The notes below the pieces were generated by a model. It saw nothing but the letters and a program-made list of their open reading frames with translations, did not search any database and was not told the DNA's origin. Source: a virus. Taken from it: DNA of 25,425 bases. Positions 3,218-23,704 of the stretch are shown piece by piece. The position numbers and the translations under genes are program-made. Location of the stretch: the IMG/VR virus record IMGVR_UViG_3300025154_000361, positions 1 to 25,425 of that record, one strand, 5' to 3'. Each line of letters opens with the position of its first letter. The stretch's first letter is position 1.

Positions 3218-3817
3218 TTACAGTAGTTTTCCTAGCGATTGCATGTAGGTTATCGGGTCTTTTGCGCTCTTTTTGCTATTACAAGTCTGGCAAAGTAACT
3301 GAATGTTGTAATCTTCGTTAGCTCCACCCAATGCGAGAGGCATGATATGGTCAAGGTGAACTTTACGCTTTTCTAGTTTATTAAGGTCTTTGTGGCATAT
3401 CGCACATCTACCTTTTTGTAAAACCATTAGCTTTTGGAATATGTCTTTTGATAAAGTTCCACCACTATACAATTTGCGTGCGCGACGATTTTGCTTACTT
3501 ATTGCACTTTGTGATTTAATTTTTTCTTTATTTTTAGCATAAAAGTTTCTAGCTAAAAGACAATATGCTTCTGGTTTTTTAGCACGTTGTTTTCTAGATG
3601 ATTCTCTTGTTGATTCTGGATTTTTATGTCTAGATTTCTTTTTTATTTCACGTCTTTTATCTGGGTCTTTATCTCTATTAATTTTACTTTGCTCACATAC
3701 GCATTCTTTACAATAAGAATTTAATGCAACCCCATGCCTAATAAAATTCCTTTTATTGACACCATATTCAGATAGCTTCTTTTCTTTTTTACATCTTATA
3801 CATATTTTATATTCCAT
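3218..3817 (-). CDS. HNH homing endonuclease
   Basis: The protein is 199 residues from the ATG at 3817; a GTG three codons upstream is an alternative, and neither has a clear ribosome-binding site. The N-terminus has a zinc ribbon (CIRC at 6-9 and CKEC), followed by a long, very basic helical linker (KINRDKDPDKRREIKKKSR), probably DNA-binding. The C-terminus is a complete HNH nuclease: CAIC, then HLDHIMPLALGGANEDYN, then CQTCNSKK. Such genes are free-standing homing endonucleases in phages. It sits between terL and portal, genes normally adjacent, and is more AT-rich than either, which supports insertion as a mobile gene. Confidence 0.87.
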   Translation of the reverse strand: MEYKICIRCKKEKKLSEYGVNKRNFIRHGVALNSYCKECVCEQSKINRDKDPDKRREIKKKSRHKNPESTRESSRKQRAKKPEAYCLLARNFYAKNKEKIKSQSAISKQNRRARKLYSGGTLSKDIFQKLMVLQKGRCAICHKDLNKLEKRKVHLDHIMPLALGGANEDYNIQLLCQTCNSKKSAKDPITYMQSLGKLL

Positions 3818-3833
3818 AAAAATCACAATAAAA

Positions 3834-7894: not shown

Positions 7895-8024
7895 GATTAT
7901 TCCTTTCCAACCAATCGGTAACAGCCCTGCGAATAATCTCGCTGACAGGCATTCCAGTCGCAAGTTTCGCAGACTTTAATCTTGACAGCAATTCAAGCGG
8001 GAAATAAAGGTTGATACGTTTCAC
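7887..8024 (-). CDS. Ribbon-helix-helix DNA-binding protein (CopG/Arc type)
   Basis: A 45-residue protein: MKRINLYFPLELLSRLKSAK, then LATGMPVSEIIRRAVTDWLE. The first strand (KRINLYFP) and two helices separated by a short turn (TGMPVSEII) are a complete ribbon-helix-helix fold, which binds DNA as a dimer through the strand. The start is GTG and overlaps the stop of the metallophosphoesterase gene (GTGA), so it is coupled. Its position inside the packaging operon makes it a candidate late regulator and one possible reader of the palindromes described here, though RHH operators are usually shorter half-sites. Confidence 0.8.
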   Translation of the reverse strand: MKRINLYFPLELLSRLKSAKLATGMPVSEIIRRAVTDWLERNNHV

Positions 8025-9238
8025 TTTATACTCACCCACGATTCTGTGTGTTCTGTTCGCTCAATAGCATCTGACACGTTCACCGGCATTGTGAATGTGA
8101 TTCCGTGGTCGCGGTGCGTTATCCACATTGCTTGACGGGGTTGTTCATACGGGAAGTTATTAGCGTATGCGTATTCATTGTAACCGCATAATGAGCTATT
8201 TACGATAAGTCGCTGCAACTGTATGAGTTGATGGAAGTGCCCGAGTAGCAATGTGTCATATCCCATATCAATCTGATTGTTACGGCTTCTTTTTTTATGG
8301 TCTCCCCTTGTTATAGGCCCGAGGCAACCAATCATAGAATCGCCCCCTCTGAACTGATCTCCATGAGTAAGCAAGTACCTATGCCCATAAATCCGGTAGT
8401 AAGCATCCGGCCCGCTTGGGATAAAAAATGTCACGCGCTTATCAGTCTTAAAATGCTTTTCCAGTAGCACATAAGTTAACCAGTCAAGCGATGTGTATGC
8501 CCTATCCTTTGCGCGTATCTTGATGGTTGTTCGCCCATGGTTGCCCGTAACACAAGGCACGAACACTTTGCCAAACTTATCAGCAAGCGTTTCTATGCAC
8601 CATATAAGCGTTCCGAACAAGTCAACGACTGCTGGTATCAACGGGATATCATTAGTCTCTTTAAGCTCATCGTGGATGTCGCCAGATACCATGTCGCCGC
8701 CGAGTGCTACGACAATTCCGGGATATTTCGGATTGACCATGTGATTATTCAGCAAATCGATTGCGCGATTTACAAGTTGCTTTGCGCGGTCTTGCGCTAT
8801 TTCGATATTGTACTTATTCACACCACCGATTTGCGTAGGATCAATCGTTTCGCCCCAATGCCAGTCTGAGCATAACAATGTCGGAACACCGGGCGATGAC
8901 TTTGGAGGCTTGGAATCAATCAACCAATTTGGCGGAACTGCCGATGTTTCAGACAATCCAAATATCTTCGACCTGATATATTTGTCTGTCAGTTCTTCAC
9001 GTTTATATGATGATAACTGCGCTTCAAGTGTAGCGATTCGATGTTTTGTTGTATCTTCATTATTCTTTACTACAACACCGCTTGGCTTAAAGTTGCGTTC
9101 CGATGCACATTTCAACCTGTTATTAAATGTCCCCCTAGGAATGTTTAATGATGCAGCAGCTTCAGTTTTATTACTACATACAGCAAGTGCGTCAATTGCT
9201 TCCTGCAATTGATCATCAGTATTTAATGGCTGGCTCAT
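8021..9238 (-). CDS. HTH-metallophosphoesterase fusion protein
   Basis: A 405-residue protein. The first 45 residues hold a helix-turn-helix (SNKTEAAASLNIPRGTFNNR), then a helical linker, then a calcineurin-like phosphoesterase domain with all metal-site motifs in order: SDWHWG, GGDMVSGD, GNHGR, THGDQF and LGHFHQ. The enzyme probably cleaves phosphodiester or phosphomonoester bonds with two metal ions; the N-terminal HTH suggests DNA as substrate or target. SbcD/Mre11-like DNA repair nucleases are related, but no Rad50/SbcC partner is present. The start at 9238 is chosen for GAGGTG upstream and an ATGA overlap with the preceding gene. Confidence 0.85.
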   Translation of the reverse strand: MSQPLNTDDQLQEAIDALAVCSNKTEAAASLNIPRGTFNNRLKCASERNFKPSGVVVKNNEDTTKHRIATLEAQLSSYKREELTDKYIRSKIFGLSETSAVPPNWLIDSKPPKSSPGVPTLLCSDWHWGETIDPTQIGGVNKYNIEIAQDRAKQLVNRAIDLLNNHMVNPKYPGIVVALGGDMVSGDIHDELKETNDIPLIPAVVDLFGTLIWCIETLADKFGKVFVPCVTGNHGRTTIKIRAKDRAYTSLDWLTYVLLEKHFKTDKRVTFFIPSGPDAYYRIYGHRYLLTHGDQFRGGDSMIGCLGPITRGDHKKRSRNNQIDMGYDTLLLGHFHQLIQLQRLIVNSSLCGYNEYAYANNFPYEQPRQAMWITHRDHGITFTMPVNVSDAIERTEHTESWVSIK

Positions 9239-9450
9239 GCGTGACACCTCGGCTTGAAAAATTGGCAGGCAACGTCTTCCATATCAACAGGAAGACCTCG
9301 TTTGAAATCGGGAACACCATCTTCCCATACAGGAATTGGCGGCGATACCCAACAATGGTATTCTTTTGCGCCCTTAACCTTTCCATAGGAGCATACACCG
9401 CAACACTCACCGGGAAATTTTTGTTTAGGTAGTGCTGTAATCTTCGCCAT
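9235..9450 (-). CDS. Small Cys-rich phage protein
   Basis: From the ATG at 9450 the product is 71 residues, MAKITALPKQKFPGECCGVC... A likely zinc site is formed by ECCGVC, HCWV and a late cysteine (VACQFFKPRC). A conserved-looking WVSPPIPVWEDG segment precedes the C-terminus. An ATG at 9462 is an alternative. It begins two bases after the stop of the upstream gene and overlaps the next by ATGA. No assigned function; the pattern resembles small structural or host-interaction proteins in phage operons. Confidence 0.62.
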   Translation of the reverse strand: MAKITALPKQKFPGECCGVCSYGKVKGAKEYHCWVSPPIPVWEDGVPDFKRGLPVDMEDVACQFFKPRCHA

Positions 9451-9451
9451 A

Positions 9452-9661
9452 TCAAGGCTCATCACAACAAATTGTATTTGATACATTCGATGGATATACG
9501 TCAATCGGCTTTCCGATTGCTTTGACATATCTCAAATCACTCTCACGTTTCCGTGATTCAATGAGCATTGCGCTCAATTGTTTTGGCGTATATTCTATGA
9601 ATTGCCCGTTCTCTACTAACTTAAAACTCAATACGCCATCAATAACGTTTTCTTCAAACAT
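9452..9661 (-). CDS. Hypothetical 69-residue protein
   Basis: The start at 9661 has a very strong ribosome-binding site (GGAGGTGAT just before the ATG), so this is almost certainly a translated gene. The protein (MFEENVIDGVLSFKLVENGQ...) has a beta-rich first half, the segment FIEYTPKQLSAMLIESRKRE which looks like a helix, and ends in CCDEP. No family recognised. It begins just after the stop of the leaderless zinc-ribbon gene. Confidence 0.75.
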   Translation of the reverse strand: MFEENVIDGVLSFKLVENGQFIEYTPKQLSAMLIESRKRESDLRYVKAIGKPIDVYPSNVSNTICCDEP

Positions 9662-9662
9662 A

Positions 9663-9863
9663 TCACCTCCCTCCGAAAATATCTTTCAAAAAATCCGGCA
9701 TTTCACTTGAATGAGATTTATTACGATTACGATTCTGATTAAGCATTGATTTGATTATGTCGTTACACGGCTTGCAATATACCGCCATACCAGCACGTAC
9801 CCTTGCATCACGCAATGTCGCCATGTATTTTCCGCAGTGATCGCAATGAAGTTCGGTGGTCAT
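9663..9863 (-). CDS. Small zinc-ribbon protein, first gene of the leftward packaging operon
   Basis: Starting at 9863 the product is 66 residues (MTTELHCDHCGKYMATLRDA...). CDHC and CKPC form a four-cysteine zinc ribbon in the first 35 residues; the rest is basic and polar. No Shine-Dalgarno precedes the ATG; instead a sigma70-type promoter ends six bases upstream, so the transcript probably starts at or next to the ATG (leaderless). This is why the short start was chosen over upstream ATGs. A truncated relative of the ribbon is found at 11562-11651. Being first in the late operon it may be a regulator or a transcription adaptor; this is inference. Confidence 0.75.
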   Translation of the reverse strand: MTTELHCDHCGKYMATLRDARVRAGMAVYCKPCNDIIKSMLNQNRNRNKSHSSEMPDFLKDIFGGR

Positions 9864-9869
9864 GGGTGC

Positions 9870-9898
9870 AATATACATACATATACACATTCTGTCAA
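9870..9898 (-). promoter_or_regulatory. Leftward promoter PL1 of the packaging operon
   Basis: On the minus strand TTGACA (9898-9893), a 17-base spacer and TATATT (9875-9870) form a near-consensus sigma70 promoter. Only six bases separate the -10 box from the ATG at 9863. The palindrome at 9914-9928 lies just upstream of the -35, an activator-like place. A twin promoter with identical spacing occurs at 11854-11882. Confidence 0.8.
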
Positions 9899-9913
9899 TT
9901 ACTTTGTATATGC

Positions 9914-9928
9914 TGTAATCGGATTACA
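9914..9928. promoter_or_regulatory. Palindromic operator copy 1
   Basis: Perfect TGTAATCGGATTACA, a 7-1-7 inverted repeat, extended by C/G to 17 bases. Its centre is 58 bases upstream of the ATG of the zinc-ribbon gene and its edge 15 bases upstream of the -35 of PL1, so a bound protein could contact RNA polymerase. Confidence 0.85.
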
Positions 9929-9944
9929 GATTTTGTCAATAACC

Positions 9945-9983
9945 TTGTTCACGCAACCTACTTTGTTCACTTTGCATGAACAA
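9945..9983. repeat. TTGTTCA direct and inverted repeats
   Basis: TTGTTCAC occurs at 9945-9952 and 9963-9970, 18 bases apart, and the second pairs with TGAACAA at 9977-9983 (perfect 7-base inverted repeat, 7-base gap). It looks like a second type of operator, distinct from the 15-bp palindrome, in the control region. Confidence 0.5.
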
Positions 9984-9997
9984 TCAAAAATAAAGAA

Positions 9998-10032
9998 AGT
10001 TATACTACCTTTTTCAGATAAATAGTATAACT
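9998..10032. repeat. Ten-base inverted repeat, hairpin candidate
   Basis: AGTTATACTA (9998-10007) and TAGTATAACT (10023-10032) are perfect reverse complements around a 15-base loop. The stem is AT-rich with no T run directly behind it, so it is a poor intrinsic terminator; it may be a binding site or an RNA structure at the end of the 10365-11847 operon transcript. Confidence 0.5.
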
Positions 10033-10054
10033 CTATTTAAGATTAGGAACTCGC

Positions 10055-10069
10055 TGTAATCGGATTACA
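10055..10069. promoter_or_regulatory. Palindromic operator copy 2
   Basis: Perfect TGTAATCGGATTACA followed by CTTAG, the same flank as the copy at 17022-17036. It lies in the non-coding region between the two leftward operons; no promoter is obvious beside it. Confidence 0.82.
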
Positions 10070-10127
10070 CTTAGTCACTTGGGACGGGACTATGTAAACA
10101 TATTCCATATTCAAGAATATAGAATGC

Positions 10128-10142
10128 TGCAATCTGATTACA
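10128..10142. promoter_or_regulatory. Degenerate operator copy
   Basis: TGCAATCTGATTACA differs from the perfect site at the third base and at the centre. A 14-base palindrome, ATATTC-AA-GAATAT (10107-10120), lies just upstream. It may be a weak site. Confidence 0.5.
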
Positions 10143-10271
10143 TTACCCATAATGGATATGTTCGTTCCCAATTTGGGTATATCAGCCAATTTTGCGCATG
10201 ATAGTTCGCATATAATTTAACCAATGTTCCAAATCACCAGCAGATTTTAATAAGTGACGGTAAATTGTAAC

Positions 10272-10286
10272 TGTAATCGGATTACA
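10272..10286. promoter_or_regulatory. Palindromic operator copy 3 (pair A, first)
   Basis: Perfect TGTAATCGGATTACA with flanks C and GAGTT. It is paired with the copy 38 bases further on; the same pair, flanks and spacing recur at 11898 and 11936. Confidence 0.85.
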
Positions 10287-10309
10287 GAGTTGAGACTTTA
10301 CTTTAAGAG

Positions 10310-10324
10310 TGTAATCGGATTACA
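10310..10324. promoter_or_regulatory. Palindromic operator copy 4 (pair A, second)
   Basis: Perfect TGTAATCGGATTACA with flanks AAGAG and CTTTTC, identical to the flanks of the copy at 11936-11950. It lies 40 bases beyond the stop of the 10365-10760 gene, so it could block or end leftward transcription like a stoperator. Confidence 0.85.
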
Positions 10325-10364
10325 CTTTTCCTTTCATTGTTTAAAAATCCGCCAAACCATGTGA

Positions 10365-10760
10365 TCAAGAAGAATCACCAAAAGCATAGTGTATGCACCC
10401 GAACATGAATGCCGTATTCCATCCCCAACTCTCATCAAACTCTATAACTGCTCCATCGTCTGGAATTTCGTTATCATCTATGCTATATCCATATTTGAAT
10501 TTTTTAGAGGAGCAATTACCAATGCGCGGCGAAGACTCAAGCTGTTCCCAGTATTTGCACGTAGAGCATCTCCCTAACACGAAGTTAGCACATTCATCTT
10601 GCACAGGCTGTTCATCAGTTTGGTAAAGGTTAGTGGTATCTGCTATGCACTTTTTGCACACATCAATCGGCTCCACCTTCATTTCAAGGCAATTAGCGCA
10701 TTGTGCATCGCCAGCGCCAAGTGGTTTCAGTTCATCAATCCGCTTCTCTATACCTTTCAT
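10365..10760 (-). CDS. Hypothetical Cys-rich phage protein, 131 residues
   Basis: The chosen start (MKGIEKRIDELKPLGAGDAQ) at 10760 follows AAGGCG. Cysteine pairs CANC, CKKC and CSTCKYW suggest two small zinc sites; the CSTCKYWE...GNCSS segment is a recurring signature of uncharacterised phage and prophage proteins. The C-terminal half is acidic with aromatic residues (DESWGWNTAFMFGCIHYAFG). Its start lies inside the end of the decayed gene upstream. No function known. Confidence 0.7.
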   Translation of the reverse strand: MKGIEKRIDELKPLGAGDAQCANCLEMKVEPIDVCKKCIADTTNLYQTDEQPVQDECANFVLGRCSTCKYWEQLESSPRIGNCSSKKFKYGYSIDDNEIPDDGAVIEFDESWGWNTAFMFGCIHYAFGDSS

Positions 10761-10920
10761 TTTTCGCCTTCGCATATCCTAACCATGCATTCGCACAGTC
10801 GTGAATCTCGTGATGATCTGATAGTCCAGCGCCACTTCGCGCCATTGGTACTGTAAACTCAATTCGCCCGCCTCTTTTCGCGGGAACTCAGTAGTTGTGC
10901 CGTATGTATTCCATTCTCAT
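10735..10920 (-). pseudogene. Small gene interrupted by an in-frame TGA
   Basis: Translation from the ATG at 10920 (overlapping the upstream stop by ATGA) gives MRMEYIRHNY, then TGA, then the same frame continues VPAKRGGRIEFTVPMARSGA and on for 52 residues in all to a TGA at 10735-10737. The junction Y-stop-VPAKRGGRI resembles the start of a small phage family with EY...YxVPAKRG.R, so the TGA probably replaced a sense codon. A separate 36-residue product from the ATG at 10845 is possible but has no ribosome-binding site. Either the gene has decayed, the stop is read through, or the sequence has an error. Confidence 0.45.
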
Positions 10921-11369
10921 ACCATCAAACCCAAAAAAATCTTGCGGATGCAATTCACAGCCGCGTCCGCACCAGTACTTCCCATATCGCTCCATTCAGG
11001 TGCAACTTCATTTAGAGTTCCTACTACACGCCTCCATGACCTCGCCTGTTGAGCTTCCGGGGATGCGTCATCACATTCCAAACTCTCATGTCGTACTCGC
11101 TCATATTCATTTTGCAATACCTTGATAAAATCCATGTATTTTAATAAAGTTGAGTGCATAGATTCGTTTCCGTTTTTTAATTCTAAAATCTCCGCGTTCA
11201 GTAGCGTAACTTGCGTATTAAGGCTCATTTTGTCCGACTCAGAAACCTCGAAAGCTGCTCTCCATTCAACATCCTGAGTAAAAATGGCTTGCCGCGCAGC
11301 AAATAAATCTGCATTCAATTCTTCCACGCGCTGCCGATATTCAGCAATTGTTTGGTCTGGGTAGCTCAT
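10917..11369 (-). CDS. Coiled-coil protein, 150 residues
   Basis: The chosen start MSYPDQTIAEYRQRVEELNA at 11369 overlaps the upstream stop by ATGA. Residues about 5-105 are a long heptad-like coiled coil (VEELNADLFAARQ, TQVTLLNAEILELK, YMDFIKVLQNEYERVR). The C-terminal 45 residues include a tryptophan-arginine stretch (ARSWRRVVGTLNEVAPEW). The C-terminal part resembles small phage proteins of unknown role. The coil suggests oligomerisation or a chaperone/tether function; nothing more can be said. Confidence 0.7.
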   Translation of the reverse strand: MSYPDQTIAEYRQRVEELNADLFAARQAIFTQDVEWRAAFEVSESDKMSLNTQVTLLNAEILELKNGNESMHSTLLKYMDFIKVLQNEYERVRHESLECDDASPEAQQARSWRRVVGTLNEVAPEWSDMGSTGADAAVNCIRKIFLGLMV

Positions 11370-11512
11370 ACATTCATCCATGCGTTATTTGCCAGCTTCT
11401 TTTGTAGGCAAGAAACCCAACCAGCGCCAACCCACACCGATTTTGTTCTCCACTCGCAGCCATCTTGACCAATCCATGATTCTGTAACTCTGCTTTCATT
11501 GTGGATCTTCAT
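11366..11512 (-). CDS. Hypothetical 48-residue Trp-rich protein
   Basis: The protein reads MKIHNESRVTESWIGQDGCE, then WRTKSVWVGAGWVSCLQKKL. It has five tryptophans and two cysteines in 48 residues. The start has GGAG upstream and the stop overlaps the next start by ATGA, so it is very likely translated. No family is recognised. The Trp- and Val-rich middle looks like a small beta fold. Confidence 0.65.
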   Translation of the reverse strand: MKIHNESRVTESWIGQDGCEWRTKSVWVGAGWVSCLQKKLANNAWMNV

Positions 11513-11528
11513 GATATTTACTCCGTTG

Positions 11529-11546
11529 TTAAAAAGATTTCAGCAT
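11529..11546 (-). CDS. Possible five-residue leader peptide (MLKSF)
   Basis: An AAGGAG site nine bases before an ATG leads into ATG-CTG-AAA-TCT-TTT-TAA. Such a good ribosome-binding site on a six-codon frame is odd; it may be a leader, or what is left of the truncated zinc-ribbon gene's downstream neighbour. Its stop lies 17 bases before the next real start. Confidence 0.25.
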   Translation of the reverse strand: MLKSF

Positions 11547-11561
11547 GTAATCACACTCCTT

Positions 11562-11651
11562 TCAGCACACCACCACCCAATCACGAATTCGGGCATCATG
11601 CAAGATAGCCATGTGTTTTCCGCAGTAATTACAGTTTAGTTCTATTCCCAT
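11562..11651 (-). CDS. Truncated zinc-ribbon paralogue, 29 residues
   Basis: The frame reads MGIELNCNYCGKHMAILHDA, then RIRDWVVVC and stop. It aligns with the operon-leading zinc ribbon at 9663-9863 (ELHCDHCGKYMATLRDAR) at both protein and DNA level, but the second CxxC pair and the tail are lost. It overlaps the end of the preceding gene out of frame and has no clear ribosome-binding site of its own. It is either a decayed duplicate or a minimal half-ribbon that could dimerise around zinc. Together with the twin promoters it shows that the two leftward operons share a duplicated head. Confidence 0.5.
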   Translation of the reverse strand: MGIELNCNYCGKHMAILHDARIRDWVVVC

Positions 11652-11847
11652 ATAACTCATCTTCAGTAATCTCAAACGAATCCATCAACGCTTTGATATA
11701 CCCATACTCAAAGCCAAGTGTGAATACGCCATCATTCCACTTGTATTGAGCTATCGTTCCACGCATATCCACAGGATAGCCAGAACGGTCAAGTCCATCA
11801 CCTCCAGTTATTCCGCGAATCTTTTTAATTGCTGATTTTTTATTCAT
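11629..11847 (-). CDS. First gene of the second leftward operon, 72 residues
   Basis: MNKKSAIKKIRGITGGDGLD begins a small protein whose middle (SGYPVDMRGTIAQYKWNDGV) looks beta-rich and whose end is helical and acidic (YIKALMDSFEITEDELYG). No family recognised. There is no strong Shine-Dalgarno; the -10 box of promoter PL2 ends six bases before the ATG, so the message is probably leaderless, as for the zinc-ribbon gene at 9863. As the first gene under an operator-controlled promoter it may be regulatory, but this is not shown by the sequence. Confidence 0.7.
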   Translation of the reverse strand: MNKKSAIKKIRGITGGDGLDRSGYPVDMRGTIAQYKWNDGVFTLGFEYGYIKALMDSFEITEDELYGNRTKL

Positions 11848-11853
11848 GCCGCC

Positions 11854-11882
11854 ACTATACAGCCTATATACACACTTGTCAA
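11854..11882 (-). promoter_or_regulatory. Leftward promoter PL2, twin of PL1
   Basis: On the minus strand TTGACA (11882-11877), a 17-base spacer and TATAGT (11859-11854), with AAAGTAA before the -35 exactly as in PL1. The -10 box ends six bases before the ATG at 11847. The operator copy at 11898-11912 is at the same distance as in PL1. Confidence 0.8.
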
Positions 11883-11897
11883 TTACTTTTAGCTTAC

Positions 11898-11912
11898 TGT
11901 AATCGGATTACA
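11898..11912. promoter_or_regulatory. Palindromic operator copy 5 (pair B, first)
   Basis: Perfect TGTAATCGGATTACA, 16 bases upstream of the -35 of PL2 and centred 58 bases from the ATG at 11847. Flanks (C and GAGTT) match pair A at 10272. Confidence 0.87.
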
Positions 11913-11935
11913 GAGTTAATGTAGTTTATGAAGAG

Positions 11936-11950
11936 TGTAATCGGATTACA
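11936..11950. promoter_or_regulatory. Palindromic operator copy 6 (pair B, second)
   Basis: Perfect TGTAATCGGATTACA, 38 bases from copy 5 and 37 bases upstream of the -35 of the rightward promoter. It lies between divergent promoters PL2 and PR, like an operator of a phage switch. Confidence 0.87.
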
Positions 11951-11986
11951 CTTTTCTCACTGTTTAGCGCGAATGTGAAATAGTTG

Positions 11987-12014
11987 TTGACTTGGTGGCG
12001 GGAATGTGGATAAT
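11987..12014 (+). promoter_or_regulatory. Rightward promoter PR
   Basis: TTGACT (11987-11992), 16-base spacer, GATAAT (12009-12014). Transcription would begin near 12021 and run through the attenuator-like hairpin and structured RNA into the HNH and methyltransferase genes. Confidence 0.6.
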
Positions 12015-12054
12015 GACTACCTATCAGCGGTTGCGCGCTAGTTTGATTCGATTG

Positions 12055-12133
12055 AAGCCTTAATCTCATCATGTTTTGAATCCTTCGGGAAGGTGCGCAA
12101 CCACCTAAAGACATGAGCAGATTAAGGCTTTTT
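12055..12133 (+). terminator. Attenuator-like terminator in the PR leader
   Basis: AAGCCTTAATCT (12055-12066) pairs perfectly with AGATTAAGGCTT (12119-12130), followed by TTT (five Ts in all from 12129). The 52-base loop contains CCTT-CGGG-AAGG (12082-12093). A crossing helix, GGTTGCGC (12029-12036) with GCGCAACC (12095-12102), could compete or form a pseudoknot. It would end most PR transcripts after about 110 bases unless antagonised. Confidence 0.6.
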
Positions 12134-12244
12134 GCTTTCCGCTGGTCGCAAGTGACGCGATAGACAGTGACCTGCATGGGTCGGATGCACCGGATACACC
12201 GATACTTAAATGGCAACTCAACGGATTGCCAAATTAACGATAAG

Positions 12245-12446
12245 GTCAGCCCTATATTCTTGCGCCGGGGTTCTTACAGATAGCGTGGATAGCGTCAGTA
12301 AGCGAAACAGGTAAAGCACAAAGTGAAGCGTTTGGTCGGACGTTACCCGACACCTGATAAGTGAGAGATAATCCGCTGGTTTGCAAATAGCCCCAGCAGT
12401 AACCCTGACAAGGTAGGAAGTTCACGGGACGGCGCAAGCTATGGGA
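12245..12446 (+). ncRNA. Structured RNA candidate ahead of the HNH gene
   Basis: A nested set of helices can be drawn. H1 CTTGCGCCG (12259-12267) with CGGCGCAAG (12430-12438), extended by CCC-ATA (12250-12256) with TAT-GGG (12440-12445). H2 GGGTT (12268-12272) with AACCC (12401-12405). Inside H2 are three arms: H3 CTTAC (12273-12277)/GTAAG (12298-12302); H4 CAGGT (12308-12312)/ACCTG (12352-12356) stacked on H5 GTCGG (12335-12339)/CCGAC (12347-12351); and H6 GCTGG (12375-12379)/CCAGC (12393-12397). GTCAG (12245-12249) could pair with CTGAC (12405-12409) as a pseudoknot. No open frame explains the region, which is more GC-rich than the adjacent gene. It does not show group I core or IscB guide-RNA sequences I know. 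It ends just before the HNH ribosome-binding site, which itself lies in the loop of ATATT/AATAT. Confidence 0.55.
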
Positions 12447-12462
12447 TATTACGAAAGGCAAT

Positions 12463-13107
12463 ATGGAATACACTGAATCATCCTACAAAGAACATTGCAA
12501 CGAATTAACCACAGTTTGGTTTAGGCTTCTTTCTTCCAGAGAAAAAGGATTATATTTCTCAATGAAACTTGCTTATTGGGCTTGTTCTGGATGTTTACCG
12601 GCGAACATAAAGGATTTATCAAGTATATTGAATGTAAATTGTAATGAAATAATTGAATCATTGGATGCAATTATGGAAACAAATATCTTTTATGAAAAAG
12701 ATGGATTTTTAATCCACCAAGAATTGGAACAGTGTCTAAATAATAAAAAAGCATCTACGGATAAAAGACTTGAATCTCGTGGACTAATTAGAAAACAAGA
12801 CAGAAAAAGACTGAATAGTGATGATTGGCTAATTATTAAAAAGAGAATTTTTGAACGTGATAATTACACTTGTTTGTATTGTAGTGTTCGTGGAGTAAGG
12901 CTTGAATGTGACCATATAATACCAATAGCAAAAGGTGGGTCGAATGAAGAATTAAATTTAGCAACAGCATGTGTGCTGTGTAATAGGGAAAAGCGTGATT
13001 CGTTAATTGAAGATTGGCTTAAGAAAAACAAAAGATTAAAGGTTATGCCGATATTCAAATTTAACAACAAATACACTTGCCCAGACGATACGCCGTTTGA
13101 GCTGTAA
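12463..13107 (+). CDS. HNH endonuclease with DUF1376-like N-terminal domain
   Basis: A 214-residue protein. Residues about 18-90 resemble a DUF1376-like phage domain with winged-helix character (REKGLYFSMKLAYWACSGCL, then LSSILNVNCNEIIESL). Residues about 125-180 are an HNH nuclease: CLYC (137-140), ECDHIIPIAKGGSNEELN with the catalytic Asp150-His151, and CVLCNREK (170-176). The zinc cysteines are intact, so it should be active. It is the first coding gene after PR and follows a long structured leader. The ribosome-binding site GAAAGG lies in a small hairpin. The stop codon TAA is part of an operator-like palindrome (13103-13117). AT-rich codon use unlike the GC-balanced leader suggests recent arrival. 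Confidence 0.85.
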   Translation: MEYTESSYKEHCNELTTVWFRLLSSREKGLYFSMKLAYWACSGCLPANIKDLSSILNVNCNEIIESLDAIMETNIFYEKDGFLIHQELEQCLNNKKASTDKRLESRGLIRKQDRKRLNSDDWLIIKKRIFERDNYTCLYCSVRGVRLECDHIIPIAKGGSNEELNLATACVLCNREKRDSLIEDWLKKNKRLKVMPIFKFNNKYTCPDDTPFEL

Positions 13108-13117
13108 TTGGATTACA
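13103..13117. promoter_or_regulatory. Operator variant at the HNH stop codon
   Basis: TGTAATTGGATTACA differs by one base from the perfect site. The HNH stop codon TAA is bases 3-5 of it. It lies 15 bases before the methyltransferase start and would let the regulator separate the two genes. Confidence 0.6.
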
Positions 13118-13131
13118 GATAGGGAACCAAA

Positions 13132-13797
13132 ATGACAATCACTTTGCTCAATACCGATTGCATGGCATTTATGGCGACATTGCCGGATAAGGCGTTTGAT
13201 TTGGCGATTGTTGATCCGCCATATGGGATATTAAATAAGACGAAACGAGGCTCTCAACGAAGTCCGCATCTTTACAGTGTGCGCGGTGAAGATTGGGATT
13301 ATGTCCCAGATAAAGAATATTTCGATGAATTGATGCGGGTTAGCAATAACCAGATAATCTGTGGTGGTAATTACTTCAGTTTGCCGTTAAGCAACGCATG
13401 GATTTTTTGGCACAAGCACCAGCCAATAAGCAATTATTCAGTTGGGGAAATGTTGTGGACATCATTTGAAATGAATACGAAGATTTTTGATTTTCCATGC
13501 TACGGGAATATTGGGCAAGATGTGGTTAGATTTCACCCAACCCAAAAGCCCGTAAAGCTCTACGAATGGCTCTTGACCAACTACGCCAAGCCCGGCCAGC
13601 GCATCCTTGACACACATGGTGGGTCAATGTCAATCGCCATAGCCTGCCACAACCTCGGATATGACCTGACGCTATGCGAACTGGACGAAGATTATTACAA
13701 TGCAGGTGTGGCTAGATTCGAGCAGCACAAGGCGCAAGGATCGCTGTTCGAGCCGGAGCCGGTCAGGACAACCAGTGTTCAATCTTCCTGTATTTAA
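13132..13797 (+). CDS. DNA methyltransferase, N6-adenine or N4-cytosine type
   Basis: A 221-residue enzyme with DPPYG at 28-32 (motif IV) ahead of the cofactor site, then HPTQKPVKLYEWLLTNY at 135-151 and ILDTHGGSMSIAIA (motif I) near 158-171, the beta-class order. It transfers methyl from SAM to an exocyclic amine in DNA; the short target-recognition part lies between about 33 and 120. No partner endonuclease is present, so it is an orphan phage enzyme likely protecting against host restriction or regulating phage genes. The start is preceded by AGGGAACCAAAATGAC, nearly the same string as before the next gene. Confidence 0.9.
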   Translation: MTITLLNTDCMAFMATLPDKAFDLAIVDPPYGILNKTKRGSQRSPHLYSVRGEDWDYVPDKEYFDELMRVSNNQIICGGNYFSLPLSNAWIFWHKHQPISNYSVGEMLWTSFEMNTKIFDFPCYGNIGQDVVRFHPTQKPVKLYEWLLTNYAKPGQRILDTHGGSMSIAIACHNLGYDLTLCELDEDYYNAGVARFEQHKAQGSLFEPEPVRTTSVQSSCI

Positions 13798-13806
13798 GGA
13801 ACCAAA

Positions 13807-13986
13807 ATGACCTACCACCAATGGCGGCATAGCACCAAGTCAAAGCCAATCAAGTGGATTGAGTTGGAATTTGATTATGGATGGATACATGTTGATGCAT
13901 CGAAAGCCATCGAATCTGCCCTAGAAGCCGCCTACCGAGCAGGATTGAAGCATGGTAGGAAAGATGCAGTAAATACTACGAAATAA
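13807..13986 (+). CDS. Hypothetical 59-residue protein between methyltransferases
   Basis: MTYHQWRHSTKSKPIKWIEL begins a small protein with a short beta-like part and a helical C-terminus (ASKAIESALEAAYRAGLKHG). AAGGAACC precedes the ATG, closely matching the site of the methyltransferase gene upstream, so they look co-regulated. The WIELEFDYGWIHVDASKAIE segment may be a nucleic-acid contact, but no family is recognised. Confidence 0.7.
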   Translation: MTYHQWRHSTKSKPIKWIELEFDYGWIHVDASKAIESALEAAYRAGLKHGRKDAVNTTK

Positions 13987-13999
13987 CTGACAAGAATAT

Positions 14000-15529
14000 A
14001 TGCGATACCTTAGTCTTTTTTCTGGAATTGAAGCGGCGAGTCAGGCGTTTATTCCGCTAGGTTGGGAATGCGTTGGGGTGGCTGAAATTGAGCCGTTTCC
14101 ATGTAAAGTATTGGCGCATCATTATCCAGACGTACCGAATCTAGGTAGTGTCACTGAAATAACAAAAGAACAGATAGAATCACTTGGGCATATTGACTTG
14201 GTAGTAGGCGGATTCCCTTGCCAAGATTTATCTATAGCTGGTAAAAGAAAGGGATTACAAAATGAAGATGGAAGCGCAACAAGGTCTGGACTTTTCTTCA
14301 CCGCAATGCGAATCATCGAATGGGCAAAGCCACGATGGGTCGTCGTTGAGAATGTGCCCGGATTATATAGCAGCCAAAAAGGGCGAGACTTTGCTTCCGT
14401 GGTTGGAGAAATGGCTGGGTGCGAATTTGACGTACCGAGAGATGGATGGAAAAATGCCGGTTGTGCAGTCGGCGAAAACGGACTTGTCGAGTGGATCACT
14501 CTGGATGCGCAATACTGCCGAACACCTGAGTACCCTAGAGCCGTCCCACAAAGACGAAGGCGTGTCTTCGTTGTCCGAGATTCTGGAGACTGGCAAAGTA
14601 GAAAACCGCTATTTCTTGAGCCGGAAGGCTTGTGCGGGAATCCTCCGCCGAGCAGAAAAACGAGGGAAGAAGTTGCCGGAACAGTTGCGGGTAGCCTTGA
14701 TAGCGAATGCGGAGGCGGTAAACTAACGCATCAATCAATAATGAATGGTCATATCATAAAAACATCATCTGAAATATCCCCACCACTCGAAACGCAAGTT
14801 GGTGGATTAAGGCAACCATGTACGCAAGCATACGTTACAACTATGCCCGCTATTCCAGCGTCATTACACAAAGGGTTGGGGCATAATAAAGATGAATTTC
14901 TGACAATCGCACTAACAGGTAACATGGATGCAATTCCAGATGTAGCACGTACTTTGAGCTTCCGTTATGATTCCAGTTATTGTGCAGATAGAGGAATGGA
15001 TGTGATAGCACTAGCAGGTAACACCATAGGTCGCGAACCAGAAAACGGCGGTAACGGAACTGGCTTCGATGAATCAGGAGCTAGTTATACGCTTACTAAG
15101 ACTGATGTTCATGCGGTGGCGTATCCAATTAACACTCAAATTGCTATGCGCCATGAAAAAACTGGAGAAGGGACTGGAATGGGCATTGGTATTGATGGAG
15201 ACCCAGCATATACGTTACAAGCTGCACATAGCCATGCGGTGGCGTTTCATGTTGATGCACAACCGGATGAAATGAATTTCAGCACCGTAACAACATCAAC
15301 TTTAACAAAATCACAACATGCTGGAGTAATGCAACCAAATATGCAAGTCCGCAGATTAACTCCAATAGAATGCGCCAGACTTCAGGCGTTTCCTGACAAC
15401 TTCCTATCACAAGTAAAAGGATACTCAGACAGCGCGGCTTACAAGAGTTTAGGTAATTCGATGGCCTGCAATGTAATGGCTGTCATTGGACAGAAAATAC
15501 AGCAAGCAAGCCAATTATCCGAAAAATAG
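14000..15529 (+). CDS. DNA (cytosine-5) methyltransferase, phage type
   Basis: A 509-residue m5C methyltransferase. Motif I FSGIEAAS is at 7-14, the catalytic PCQ in GGFPCQDLS with Cys74, ENV at 117-119, QRRRRVF at 184-190, and the late motifs VRRLTPIECARLQAFPDNF and YKSLGNSMACNV near the C-terminus. The middle (about 225-455) is a long, variable target-recognition region with repeated AVAYPINTQ/HAVAFHVDAQ segments. It methylates C5 of cytosine in a short site. It follows two small genes and has no strong Shine-Dalgarno. A second frame nested in it (14262-14726) encodes a protein-like sequence, a notable overprint. Confidence 0.92.
   Translation: MRYLSLFSGIEAASQAFIPLGWECVGVAEIEPFPCKVLAHHYPDVPNLGSVTEITKEQIESLGHIDLVVGGFPCQDLSIAGKRKGLQNEDGSATRSGLFFTAMRIIEWAKPRWVVVENVPGLYSSQKGRDFASVVGEMAGCEFDVPRDGWKNAGCAVGENGLVEWITLDAQYCRTPEYPRAVPQRRRRVFVVRDSGDWQSRKPLFLEPEGLCGNPPPSRKTREEVAGTVAGSLDSECGGGKLTHQSIMNGHIIKTSSEISPPLETQVGGLRQPCTQAYVTTMPAIPASLHKGLGHNKDEFLTIALTGNMDAIPDVARTLSFRYDSSYCADRGMDVIALAGNTIGREPENGGNGTGFDESGASYTLTKTDVHAVAYPINTQIAMRHEKTGEGTGMGIGIDGDPAYTLQAAHSHAVAFHVDAQPDEMNFSTVTTSTLTKSQHAGVMQPNMQVRRLTPIECARLQAFPDNFLSQVKGYSDSAAYKSLGNSMACNVMAVIGQKIQQASQLSEK
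14262..14726 (+). CDS. Overprinted gene nested inside the m5C methyltransferase
   Basis: In the +1 frame relative to the methyltransferase, 154 codons are open from the ATG at 14262, with GAAAGGG nine bases upstream. The C-terminal half reads SLSEILETGKVENRYFLSRK, then ACAGILRRAEKRGKKLPEQL. As I recall, this SLS.ILETG....YFLS.KAC.GILRRAEKRGK.LP pattern recurs in other phages as a small protein overlapping or adjacent to m5C methyltransferase genes; a search should confirm it. The methyltransferase frame in the same bases reads QRRRRVFVVRDSGDW... Both frames appear constrained. The function is unknown; a partner of the methyltransferase is one possibility. Confidence 0.6.
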   Translation: MKMEAQQGLDFSSPQCESSNGQSHDGSSLRMCPDYIAAKKGETLLPWLEKWLGANLTYREMDGKMPVVQSAKTDLSSGSLWMRNTAEHLSTLEPSHKDEGVSSLSEILETGKVENRYFLSRKACAGILRRAEKRGKKLPEQLRVALIANAEAVN

Positions 15530-15550
15530 CTTTTTTACAAATTTACAATT
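15505..15550 (+). repeat. Imperfect direct repeat flanking the TnpB element, left copy
   Basis: A segment starting AGCAAGCCAATTATCC at the end of the methyltransferase gene resembles the one starting AGCAAGTCCGATTATCC at 16954-17000 beyond the element; roughly three quarters of about 46 bases match by eye with a few gaps. It may be an ancestral duplication at the insertion site or chance in AT-rich DNA. Confidence 0.35.
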
Positions 15551-15569
15551 TGGGCGAAAATCCCCGTCA

Positions 15570-15725
15570 TTAATGGTGGGTATGGATAGCGCGAGCAGAG
15601 AAGCTGCTCATGTATTGTAGCAAAGCAAGCTCAACAATTTTCTTTTTGTGAATGCCGTTTTCTTTTGCGAAGGAATCAAGGTCTTCTTTGAGCTTTTCGG
15701 GTATAGGCACATTCAATGCTTTCAT
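15570..15725 (-). CDS. Ribbon-helix-helix protein carried by the TnpB element
   Basis: A 51-residue protein: MKALNVPIPEKLKEDLDSFA, then KENGIHKKKIVELALLQYMS. The first strand (KALNVPIPE) and two helices fit the ribbon-helix-helix fold of CopG/antitoxin-type regulators. AAGGA precedes the start. It is divergent from tnpB with 46 bases between the starts, and the tnpB promoter overlaps its ribosome-binding site, so it may repress tnpB. Its end lies within the left-end hairpin, so it appears to be part of the element rather than of the phage. Confidence 0.75.
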   Translation of the reverse strand: MKALNVPIPEKLKEDLDSFAKENGIHKKKIVELALLQYMSSFSARAIHTHH

Positions 15726-15735
15726 TTAATTATCC

Positions 15736-15764
15736 TTGCATTTATATTTAAGTATGCGTATAGT
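15736..15764 (+). promoter_or_regulatory. Promoter of tnpB
   Basis: TTGCAT (15736-15741), 17-base spacer, TATAGT (15759-15764). The -10 box ends seven bases before the chosen tnpB ATG, so this message may also be leaderless or nearly so. Confidence 0.55.
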
Positions 15765-15771
15765 GTACCAC

Positions 15772-16869
15772 ATGAAATCCAAAACGCAAATTAAAACTTT
15801 GAAAGTTAGAATTAAGGACAAACACGCTGCTATTCTTAATCAATGGGCTTTTGAAGTAAACCAAGTATGGAATGCAGCAAACGAGTTGAGCGCAGATTAT
15901 TCATGGGTTCCTATTCCTGAGGTTGGATATATAAATTGCGGAACATCAGAATATGATTTGCAGAAAGAGCTTAAAACTATTCGAGCAGAACGTAATTTTT
16001 CAATTAGTGCTGTAACTATACAAAGCGTTATTTCTCAACATGCAAAATCTCGCCGTCAATTCAAGAAAAACAAACTTCAATGGAGATGTTCAAGCGGTTC
16101 AAAGCGTTCATTAGGGTGGGTTCCATTTAAGTCTGCTGGCGTTAAATTTATCAATGGTCAAGTACGATTTTGTGGGAAATTATTCAGTATTTGGGATAGT
16201 TATGATTTATCAAAATATGAATTAGGTACTGGTTCATTCTCGCAAGATTCTCGTGGTCGTTGGTATTTTAATACGACAATTAAGGTTGAAATAAAATCGT
16301 CAGAAGGTAAAACATCTGTTGGAATTGATTTAGGTCTTAAAACAATAGCAACTTGTTCTGACGGAACTGTATTTGAACGCAGGCGTATAACAGATGAATT
16401 CGCAAAAGAATTAGCAACAGCACAAGGCGCAAAAAAGAAAAATCGTGTTAGGGCGATACATGCAAAGATTAAAAATACCCGTAGCGATGCCATACATAAA
16501 TTCACTACTACAATGGCTGAAAACTATGGTGCTATTTTTATAGGTGATGTTAGTAGTAAAAAATTGACTAAAACCAAAATGGCAAAGTCAGTATTAGATG
16601 CTGGATGGGGTATGTTAAAGACACAACTGAAATATAAAGCGATAGCGCGGTCAGTTATGTTTGAAGAAATAAATGAAAAGTACACCACCCAGATTTGTTC
16701 GTGTTGCGGAGTAATATCCGGCAATAGTCCGAAAGGTAGAGCAGGTCTTGGAATAAGAGAATGGATTTGTTGTGAATGTGGTGCAATTCACGACCGCGAT
16801 ATAAATGCGGCAAAAAACATTCTCGCGCTCGGGCATGAGCGTCTAGCTGTAGGAATCTCCGTCCTTTAG
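15772..16869 (+). CDS. tnpB: TnpB-family RNA-guided nuclease (IS605 OrfB)
   Basis: From the ATG at 15772 the protein is 365 residues, a normal TnpB length. It has the N-terminal helical/OrfB_IS605 part, the first RuvC motif VGIDLGLKTIATCSDG (Asp186), a middle motif IFIGDVSSKKLTKTKMAKS, a zinc finger CSCCG...CCECG (near 309-336) and the third motif HDRDINAAKNI. TnpB uses an RNA made from the element's right end to cut target DNA. At the place of the usual middle glutamate (E-D-L type motif) there is Asp259 in GDVSS. A large TnpB subgroup shows Asn or Asp here (VSS-type) and may use a different glutamate, so activity is not certain. No ribosome-binding site is seen. Confidence 0.88.
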   Translation: MKSKTQIKTLKVRIKDKHAAILNQWAFEVNQVWNAANELSADYSWVPIPEVGYINCGTSEYDLQKELKTIRAERNFSISAVTIQSVISQHAKSRRQFKKNKLQWRCSSGSKRSLGWVPFKSAGVKFINGQVRFCGKLFSIWDSYDLSKYELGTGSFSQDSRGRWYFNTTIKVEIKSSEGKTSVGIDLGLKTIATCSDGTVFERRRITDEFAKELATAQGAKKKNRVRAIHAKIKNTRSDAIHKFTTTMAENYGAIFIGDVSSKKLTKTKMAKSVLDAGWGMLKTQLKYKAIARSVMFEEINEKYTTQICSCCGVISGNSPKGRAGLGIREWICCECGAIHDRDINAAKNILALGHERLAVGISVL

Positions 16870-16886
16870 GGCAGGAGATGATGTCA
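16730..16886 (+). ncRNA. Likely omega (reRNA) guide-RNA scaffold of the TnpB element
   Basis: By analogy with other TnpB systems, the guide scaffold overlaps the tnpB 3' end and ends at the right-end hairpin. Here CTCC-GTCCTTTAGGGCA-GGAG (about 16858-16877) followed by ATGATGTCAAC fits. The guide would be the sequence directly after about 16887 (beginning ATCGCACC). The 5' limit is a guess; the hairpin is directly visible. Confidence 0.5.
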
Positions 16887-16996
16887 ACATCGCACCACTA
16901 TCACCAAACAAACCCGCTAATCAGCTTCCTGACGCTGATACGGGCTATCTGATAGCAAGTCCGATTATCCAGAAAATTTACATTTTTCAAATCTGA
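16874..16996 (+). other. Open fragment beside the TnpB right end, possible disrupted gene end
   Basis: Read from GGA at 16874 the frame gives GDDVNIAPLSPNKPANQLPD, then ADTGYLIASPIIQKIYIFQI and stop at 16996. It has no start codon; the upstream part would lie inside the element. The protein-like composition hints that the element cut off the front of a phage gene. Evidence is weak: one short open frame. Confidence 0.25.
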
Positions 16997-17021
16997 AATT
17001 CACTCACACCAATTCTCAGTC

Positions 17022-17036
17022 TGTAATCGGATTACA
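17022..17036. promoter_or_regulatory. Palindromic operator copy 7
   Basis: Perfect TGTAATCGGATTACA followed by CTTAG, as at 10055. It lies in the region upstream of the GC-rich small-gene cluster. Confidence 0.82.
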
Positions 17037-17156
17037 CTTAGGGCGATATTCACTTCGCATAATTCGCAAGCATTCAGGCAGGTTACTTCTCACGCAAATT
17101 AAATCGCATACAGGGATAATGACAGGATGATAATATATTAAGCGGGATGTTGGGGA

Positions 17157-17231
17157 GTGGATTTACTGTACGAGTTGGCTTGGGATAACGGGCTGGATCG
17201 ACTGGAGGGGGCAAAAGGTGAACACAATTAA
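17157..17231 (+). CDS. Possible 24-residue micro-protein
   Basis: A GTG start (after GGGATGTTGGGGA) gives MDLLYELAWDNGLDRLEGAK and ends GEHN. It looks like a compact acidic helix. The ribosome-binding site is G-rich but not clean, and there is no coupling to a neighbour, so it is uncertain. Confidence 0.28.
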   Translation: MDLLYELAWDNGLDRLEGAKGEHN

Positions 17232-17455
17232 CAGCTTGCGAGGGGCGCGCCAATAGCATCGAGGGGCGTATAGGTTAGTGCCTGCTAACGTGACGCAATT
17301 TGCGGCACTATTGTGACGAATTTTGTCACTTATCTGCGTTATGTCAAACGTATCGAGCTGCCTATATTTTAGGCAATCGCGCTGTAAGTCAATAGGCGCG
17401 ACATTCTAGCAAATAGTTATGCACAATGGCATGATGTGGCATGGTTACTGCATAC

Positions 17456-17461
17456 TATAAT
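17456..17461 (+). promoter_or_regulatory. Consensus -10 box ahead of the small-gene cluster
   Basis: TATAAT, 44 bases upstream of the start at 17506. No convincing -35 lies 16-18 bases upstream, so an activator may be needed, or it may not be a promoter. Confidence 0.3.
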
Positions 17462-17505
17462 AGCGTAACAGCCACGGCGGCTTGCCGGATTTTAAGGGGA
17501 ATATG

Positions 17506-17685
17506 ATGAGTAAGAACGAATTTTATAGGGTATGCAATATGCACGGCGTAGAGCTGGCGCAATCGCTGGCGCTTGCTGCATCGCGCATCACGCTGGCGCA
17601 GGTGCAATTGTGGGCTGCCTCTTACAAGTGCCCTAGTCACTGGACTGGTGGCGAGTCAACCCATCGCGGCGAGGTGTCAGTATGA
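17506..17685 (+). CDS. Small protein, possible Cro-like HTH, 59 residues
   Basis: From the second ATG of a tandem pair (AAGGGG seven bases upstream) the product is MSKNEFYRVCNMHGVELAQS followed by LALAASRITLAQVQLWAASY and KCPSHWTGG. The central part could be a helix-turn-helix (HGVELAQSLALAASRITLAQVQLW), giving a small DNA-binding protein that could read the palindromes; this is only a structural guess. It overlaps the next start by ATGA and begins a GC-rich cluster. Confidence 0.6.
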   Translation: MSKNEFYRVCNMHGVELAQSLALAASRITLAQVQLWAASYKCPSHWTGGESTHRGEVSV

Positions 17686-23497: not shown

Positions 23498-23704
23498 ATG
23501 AATAACTGGAATCCAATTTCAACAGCACCTAAAGACGGAACTATCATAAGGCTGCGTGATGAAAAGCGCATGTATAACTGCGTTATGGCTTGGGATAAGA
23601 AGCGCAAGCTATGGACTGGAATGGCATACGGAATGATGGGAGCATCGAAAACGTATTGGGACGAAGAGTTTTGTCCGATATTCGAGTGGCAGCATGTATT
23701 TTAA
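23498..23704 (+). CDS. DUF551-like protein, 68 residues
   Basis: Starts MNNWNPISTAPKDGTIIRLR; the W-x-PI-x-TAPKDG signature and later tryptophans (KLWTGMAY, TYWDEEFCPIFEW) fit DUF551-like phage and plasmid proteins of unknown function. GAAAGG precedes the ATG. Its stop TAA is directly followed by the stop of the convergent helicase gene, with no space for a terminator. Confidence 0.78.
   Translation: MNNWNPISTAPKDGTIIRLRDEKRMYNCVMAWDKKRKLWTGMAYGMMGASKTYWDEEFCPIFEWQHVF

Follow-up and report, generated by a model that had tools for sequence, protein, structure and literature searches.

A conserved RNA domain with a predicted terminator-like helix upstream of an HNH gene in a phage genome fragment

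Introduction

GOLLD and ROOL are large noncoding RNAs that are borne by phages and are independent of the neighbouring genes. In the late leader of phage lambda (pR′-tR′) and in the put RNA of HK022, a strong promoter is followed by a short leader with a terminator or an RNA element and then by exchangeable genes; to our knowledge, a kissing-loop architecture has been described for neither. Large phage RNAs, among them GOLLD and ROOL (PMC12286853), and the core of RF02932 (Betaproteobacteria-1 RNA) are already known, and among the openly accessible papers searched we found none naming RF02932 or Betaproteobacteria-1 RNA.

Here we present an analysis of the leader of an HNH gene in the viral record IMGVR_UViG_3300025154_000361, of which positions 1–25,425 were analysed and are referred to below as the window. 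An earlier note on this DNA had proposed that a large structured RNA lies directly before the HNH gene and that it belongs to a class other than group I, group II, or HEARO. Both proposals agree with our data, in that a conserved domain is found at positions 12021–12148 and the Rfam models are negative. Judged from sequence comparison, the domain is part of a putative RNA class that is widespread in phages, largely undescribed, and not tied to the HNH gene.

Results

Organization of the Leader and Search for Homologues

The main features of the region are as follows.

11936–11950, strand unassigned: 15-bp palindrome TGTAATCGGATTACA of the repeat family D1/D2, present at least eight times across the window, a probable operator beside the promoter
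11987–12014, plus strand: sigma-70-like promoter TTGACT-16-GATAAT (consensus scan, 10/12; consensus match only)
12021–12148, plus strand: conserved 5′ domain of the phage RNA (covariance model R1, full length)
12149–12462, plus strand: 3′ module of the leader with a predicted structure, containing 12245–12446, identical only in G001
12463–13107, plus strand: HNH gene with a DUF1376-like N-terminus and an HNH domain (Pfam HNH, 5.8e-11; DUF1376, 8.3e-5, below its cut-off)

The putative RNA start lies at about 12021, and the leader is predicted to belong to a longer noncoding RNA transcribed from a promoter of its own. The promoter region is 88% identical to that of the relative L118, and promoter-like sequences, likewise consensus matches only, lie 5′ of the domain in the other homologues as well. 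A copy of TGTAATCGGATTACA is found at the equivalent relative place in L118, L188, and L198. In total, about eight such palindromes lie between genes of the window (at 9913, 10054, 10309, 11935, 13102, 17021, 19508, and 25320), and they also occur in the relatives L114, L118, L188, and L198; the family probably represents operators of one phage regulator.

Near relatives were obtained by a scan with the exonuclease gene of the phage (8021–9247). In L118 and L114, similarity to the window covers the promoter region (11898–12028 and 11936–12015) and resumes at position 13065, and the sequence between differs: segment 12029–13064 is replaced by another one, in which the same promoter type is followed by approximately 450–580 nt of noncoding sequence and then by other genes. 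A 19-base string common to L114 and L118 was used to find further homologues in viral contigs and retrieved L188 (also encountered as L193 and L202), L198, and L194/L214, and a search of phage records with L194 led to MW202573.1 (L205). The homologous domain is therefore represented by L114, L118, L188, L198, L194/L214, and L205, which comprise near relatives and two distant phage contigs. In one viral-contig scan for homologues, 10 of the 17 matches were unrelated, nearly identical phage sequence and were rejected. Two other routes to the RNA were also abandoned: HNH homologues gave HNH-domain matches only, with no common leader, and methyltransferase relatives gave no RNA homologue.

Conserved Structure of the 5′ Domain

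The six homologues were aligned over about 135 nt with the window excluded. One structure fits all of them: helix P1 closes the domain, P2 and P3 cross P4 and P5 as pseudoknots, and P6 is the capping helix. The structure has 48 pairs, and 99.3% of the 287 cells are standard pairs; both sides are changed in 19 of the 48 pairs, with the reservation that the six sequences are related and these changes are not all independent. None of 500 shuffles reached these values of pairing and change, and slid controls with partners shifted by 1–3 columns gave at most 44% pairing and at most 4 both-side-changed pairs. P2 and P4 are 100% paired, with both-side changes in 4 of 7 and 5 of 11 pairs, respectively, and P1 is 95.2% paired with one both-side change. 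Taken together, the pseudoknots P2 and P3 are 100% paired, and 10 of their 15 pairs are changed on both sides.

Model R1, a covariance model restricted to the nested helices, was built from the six homologues without the window. In the window it finds P1, P4, P5, and P6 at 12021–12148 over the full length, scoring 28.0 bits, compared with 10.5 bits for the second-best match among all positions on both strands of the 25 kb. The elements of the domain in the window are as follows.

12023–12029, plus strand: P1 5′ strand, pairing with 12140–12146 and overlapping the H1 5′ strand (R1 alignment)
12026–12039, plus strand: hairpin H1, AGCG-GUUGCG-CGCU (loop-to-P4-loop complementarity in 29 of 32 RNAs)
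12029–12036, plus strand: P2 5′ strand GGUUGCGC, long-range pairing with 12095–12102
12045–12049 with 12078–12082: possible P3 of 5 bp, reduced in the window
12055–12066, plus strand: P4 5′ strand AAGCCUUAAUCU (inverted repeat I6, R1 alignment)
12069–12077, plus strand: P5 5′ strand UCAUGUUUU, pairing with 12108–12116 (R1 alignment and direct sequence reading)
12082–12093, plus strand: hairpin CCUUCGGGAAGG in the P5 loop, the P6 counterpart (sequence, MFE fold)
12095–12102, plus strand: P2 3′ strand GCGCAACC, pairing with 12029–12036
12119–12133, plus strand: P4 3′ strand AGAUUAAGGCUU running into a U-tract, terminator-like (sequence, inverted repeat, R1 alignment)
12140–12146, plus strand: P1 3′ strand CGCUGGU (R1 alignment)

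The window has the promoter upstream and the U-tract after P4b that characterize the class, as well as the complementarity between the H1 loop and the P5 loop, a feature outside model R1. The long-range pairing, also absent from R1, comprises 8 bp overall (GGUUGCGC/GCGCAACC), of which GUUGCG/CGCAAC involves H1. The window is nevertheless a divergent member, because P3 has only 5 bp and the inner (P6) hairpin is placed differently. In all homologues, the U-tract directly follows P4.

The complementarity between the 5′ hairpin and the long arm was evaluated in larger sets of RNAs. A 5′ segment forms at least 7 Watson–Crick pairs with the P4 loop in 24 of 27 RNAs, compared with 20% when segments were swapped between loci; these RNAs are 26 loci picked by eye plus the window, with the P4 strand fixed by eye and a selection that was not blind. 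Between the H1 loop and the P4 loop, 29 of 32 RNAs have at least 6 Watson–Crick pairs; swaps reach this number in 23% of cases and shuffles in 18%. An automatic pseudoknot scan in which no helix position was fixed gave a weak signal (7 of 36 at p ≤ 0.05). Overall, the comparative data show that the first ~128 nt of the putative RNA (from about 12021) fold into a conserved domain. No Rfam family matches the 5′ domain in the window, L114, L188, L194, L198, L200, L205, or L214, and neither R1 nor RF02932 matched in 369 gammaproteobacterial genomes, in a search that had no positive control.

Relation to Betaproteobacteria-1 RNA

On the contig of L118, RF02932 matches approximately 75 nt behind the 5′ domain (L200) with 50.6 bits, which is above the cut-off of 49.4 bits. 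In the window, there was no match to RF02932 at E ≤ 10 and none to R2, our own model of the RF02932-type core from 42 loci. A scan of viral contigs with a string from the RF02932 consensus returned at least 120 stretches, 80 of which were examined; about eight were coding chance matches, and redundancy reduction left 53 distinct stretches, a few false ones still among them. In about half of the 53, the region upstream of the core contains a promoter-like sequence, a long helix with a U-tract at its end, and a hairpin together with a loop to which it is complementary. With filters off, R1 matched where expected in front of the RF02932-type core in all eight loci tried, the scores ranging from 36.5 bits (E = 5.6e-7, L234) to 9.6 bits (E about 8, L220 and L231), with E below 0.1 in only three of them.

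In other phages, Betaproteobacteria-1 RNA lies behind the same 5′ domain, so the two are modules of one class, and RF02932 often seems to form the 3′ core of a larger phage RNA that begins with the domain found here. Some RF02932-type cores occur without the 5′ domain, directly behind a gene that often encodes a Toprim primase and sometimes an HNH or other nuclease-like protein. Examples are L281:6776–6917 behind an HNH-like gene, L215:2523–2664 behind a nuclease-like gene, and L222:4764–4905 behind a Toprim-type gene, all within about 75–100 nt of the stop codon. A variant of the core with an inserted arm, GACTGCGACCTGGTGAAAGAAACGGGGGGGC, is present in the motif regions of L236, L257, and L272, a separate group of viral contigs.

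The 3′ Module

Positions 12245–12446, on which the earlier note was centred, lie between the divergent promoter region and the HNH gene. As had been stated there, this stretch has no apparent coding potential: its reading frames are noncoding in appearance, and no plausible ORF or gene is found across it. Of the helices drawn, the 9-bp stem 12259–12267/12430–12438, which closes the proposed fold, is part of a longer, 15-pair closing helix in the MFE fold, and arms are present as well, but the named helices are not the conserved ones, the structure tested by comparison being that at 12021–12148. In agreement with the note, the RNA has a pseudoknot-type interaction (12029–12036/12095–12102), located in the conserved domain upstream of the stretch.

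The note had also considered the arrangement hard to explain by chance and had suggested a stability comparison with shuffled sequence. The result does not support this assessment: the MFE has z = −0.94 relative to dinucleotide shuffles, 32 of 200 shuffles are equally or more stable, and the closing stem is matched by 4–5% of shuffles (p about 0.04, uncorrected for the choice of ends). For 200-nt segments starting from 12080 to 12480, z lies between −0.5 and +1.5; the thermodynamically unusual part of the leader is 12000–12240, just upstream, with z about −3 at starts 12000 and 12040.

The sole homologue found for 12149–12462 is a 100% identical copy in IMGVR_UViG_3300025012_000354 (G001), which is therefore uninformative on the base pairs of the fold. 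Apart from this copy, no counterpart of the module was found with RF02932, R2, nhmmer, or R3, a covariance model of the proposed fold, whose sole match in 835 kb of sequence from relatives and class loci was the window itself. We lean slightly towards the view that the helices of 12245–12446 are a chance fold of a fast-evolving 3′ module, in agreement with the z-score, the uncorrected p-value, and the failure of nhmmer and R3 to find a diverged homologue. Against this, the closing helix is somewhat longer than expected, and in L205 and L214, which can be aligned over about 395 nt including both domains, the hairpins of the 3′ modules have paired changes (for example, GCCGU/ACGGC versus GCCAC/GUGGC), so 3′ modules can be structured, as they are in other members. 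The view concerns those helices only and is compatible with a conditional terminator in the 5′ domain.

The HNH Gene and Its Neighbourhood

The G+C content is about 0.28–0.36 in the HNH gene versus 0.47–0.49 in the leader. The last residues of the HNH protein, NNKYTCPDDTPFEL, match the end of a gene of 77–78 aa in L118 and L114 (GNKWTCPDDTPFGREV and GNNWTYPDDTPFGLK), and the HNH gene therefore seems to have replaced most of that gene; the end of its coding sequence (13065–13107), homologous to the end of the otherwise unrelated short gene, is an in-frame join to the tail of the replaced one. L114, L118, L188, and L198 carry the same RNA domain with no HNH gene at this place, the converse of the refuting case named in the earlier note (HNH homologues lacking such a leader), and L198 has the 5′ domain with neither the 3′ module nor the HNH gene. 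The genes behind the RNA vary and include those for HNH, a 149-aa ORF, a methyltransferase, a 78-aa ORF, a 2OG oxygenase, a RecE-like protein, and primase/helicase; in the window, methyltransferases follow the HNH gene. The HNH gene is thus exchangeable cargo.

Several other observations were made in the neighbourhood. Positions 9620–17507 are identical to IMGVR_UViG_3300025012_000354 over 7.9 kb, and every 250-base bin from 7920 to 9620 differs, pointing to a sharp recombination boundary at 9620. A TnpB-type gene at 15736–16869 has an OrfB_IS605 and a Cas12f1-like TNB domain, and its 3′ end has 73.5% DNA identity to Salmonella phage LPSTLL; an omega-RNA end near 16850–16890 is probable. Two homing-endonuclease-like genes on the minus strand (852–1673 and 3218–3826), of the GIY-YIG type and with a second HNH, add to a phage fragment rich in such passengers. 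A short repeat hinted at homology to the DUF551-like gene at 23500, but the resemblance was judged to be due to chance.

Discussion

The most likely reading, which we put forward tentatively, is that the RNA domain heads a cargo operon and acts there as a conditional terminator. The RNA would start at about 12021, H1 would form first, and after transcribing about 110 nt the polymerase would reach the P4/U-tract terminator. The H1 loop could bind the single strand inside the long P4–P5 arm (the P5 loop) in a kissing or pseudoknot contact. As H1 shares 3 or 4 bases with P1 (12026–12029), the two cannot both be complete, which suggests two states, terminated or read through; the H1–P5 contact or P1 could decide whether a short RNA of ~115 nt is made or transcription continues into the 3′ module and then the swappable genes. 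The HNH enzyme itself would stand outside this mechanism.

P4 with its U-tract is a predicted intrinsic terminator that is typical apart from the long structured loop, and the variability of the genes behind the RNA, as expected of a gene-independent device at the start of an operon, supports a conditional terminator. Counting against it, some RF02932-type cores lie directly behind genes without the 5′ domain, the domain of the window differs in detail (P3 of 5 bp, position of the P6 hairpin), and the promoters are consensus matches only. In addition, the U-tract is bridged by P1 and followed by the RF02932 core; therefore, selection would also act on the full-length RNA, something that termination alone does not require.

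This conservation across and beyond the U-tract, together with the own promoter, the noncoding length of 400–600 nt, the variable neighbours, and the extended alignment of L205 with L214, favours the main rival, a trans-acting phage RNA. The full-length RNA would then bind a phage or host protein or self-assemble, as GOLLD and ROOL do, and the U-tract helix would be structural or a processing mark. We regard it as possible but rather unlikely, since in every homologue P4 ends directly in a U-tract, the hallmark of termination, and a scaffold made of the whole RNA would hardly allow the 3′ module to be swapped wholesale between close relatives and lost in L198.

A link to phage DNA replication, with the RNA as an origin transcript or primer, for example, is improbable. 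RF02932-type RNAs are often located immediately after a Toprim primase gene and close to helicase genes, and the RNA of L205 follows a DnaB-like helicase; elsewhere, however, they lie near terminase, RecE-like exonuclease, or methyltransferase genes, and the primase-like gene of the window is 11 kb away. Finally, the suggestion of the earlier note that the RNA controls or works with the HNH gene, as a specific leader or an omega-RNA-like guide, is largely refuted and has very little probability: about 17 nt separate the end of the stretch from the HNH start codon, and RNA and gene share the exchanged segment 12029–13064, but relatives carry the domain without an HNH gene and therefore the RNA is not a dedicated partner of this protein, which has no visible RuvC or PLMP domain, and the HEARO model is negative.

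To return to the conditional terminator and its wider setting, we give about even chances to the general picture of a widespread phage RNA class of 350–600 nt that is represented in Rfam by a 120-nt fragment only and that combines a 5′ kissing-loop/terminator domain with an exchangeable 3′ module as a gene-independent transcription switch (or trans-acting RNA) heading cargo operons. An orphan 120-nt Rfam motif would thereby find its place as the 3′ core of a longer phage RNA that is transcribed from its own promoter and has a pseudoknotted 5′ domain supported by covariation, many aquatic phage genomes would contain a concrete, testable switch (H1 loop versus P5 loop, with P4 as the terminator), and the adjoining HNH gene would be only a passenger.

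Comparison with Known RNAs

Group I and group II introns, riboswitches, tRNA, and tmRNA were rejected, with no Rfam or ARAGORN match; no Rfam family matches the window at its gathering score, and no intron model matches 11850–12550 at E ≤ 10. HEARO, the omega RNA of IscB (RF02033), is also a structured RNA directly before an HNH gene, but it has no match in the window at E ≤ 10, its strings GUCAA...GUUGACCAG and GCUUCCUnAGU are absent from the RNA of the window, and the adjoining protein (P0001) is not IscB and consists of DUF1376-like and HNH parts only; it was ruled out both by the model and by the features of 25 real HEARO matches.

The lambda pR′-tR′ leader and HK022 put share with this locus a strong promoter and, behind it, a short leader that contains a terminator or an RNA element, followed by exchangeable genes, whereas no Q- or put-like element was identified. 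GOLLD and ROOL resemble it as large phage noncoding RNAs that are not bound to adjoining genes, but the class described here is smaller, and neither family has an Rfam match in the window or its relatives. Betaproteobacteria-1 RNA differs in that the Rfam model covers just 120 positions, all in the 3′ core, with no counterpart of the 5′ domain in Rfam, and in that the 3′ module of the window does not match it; what the two have in common is the same class of phage location and, in L200/L118 and many viral contigs, a place for Betaproteobacteria-1 RNA directly downstream of this kind of 5′ domain.
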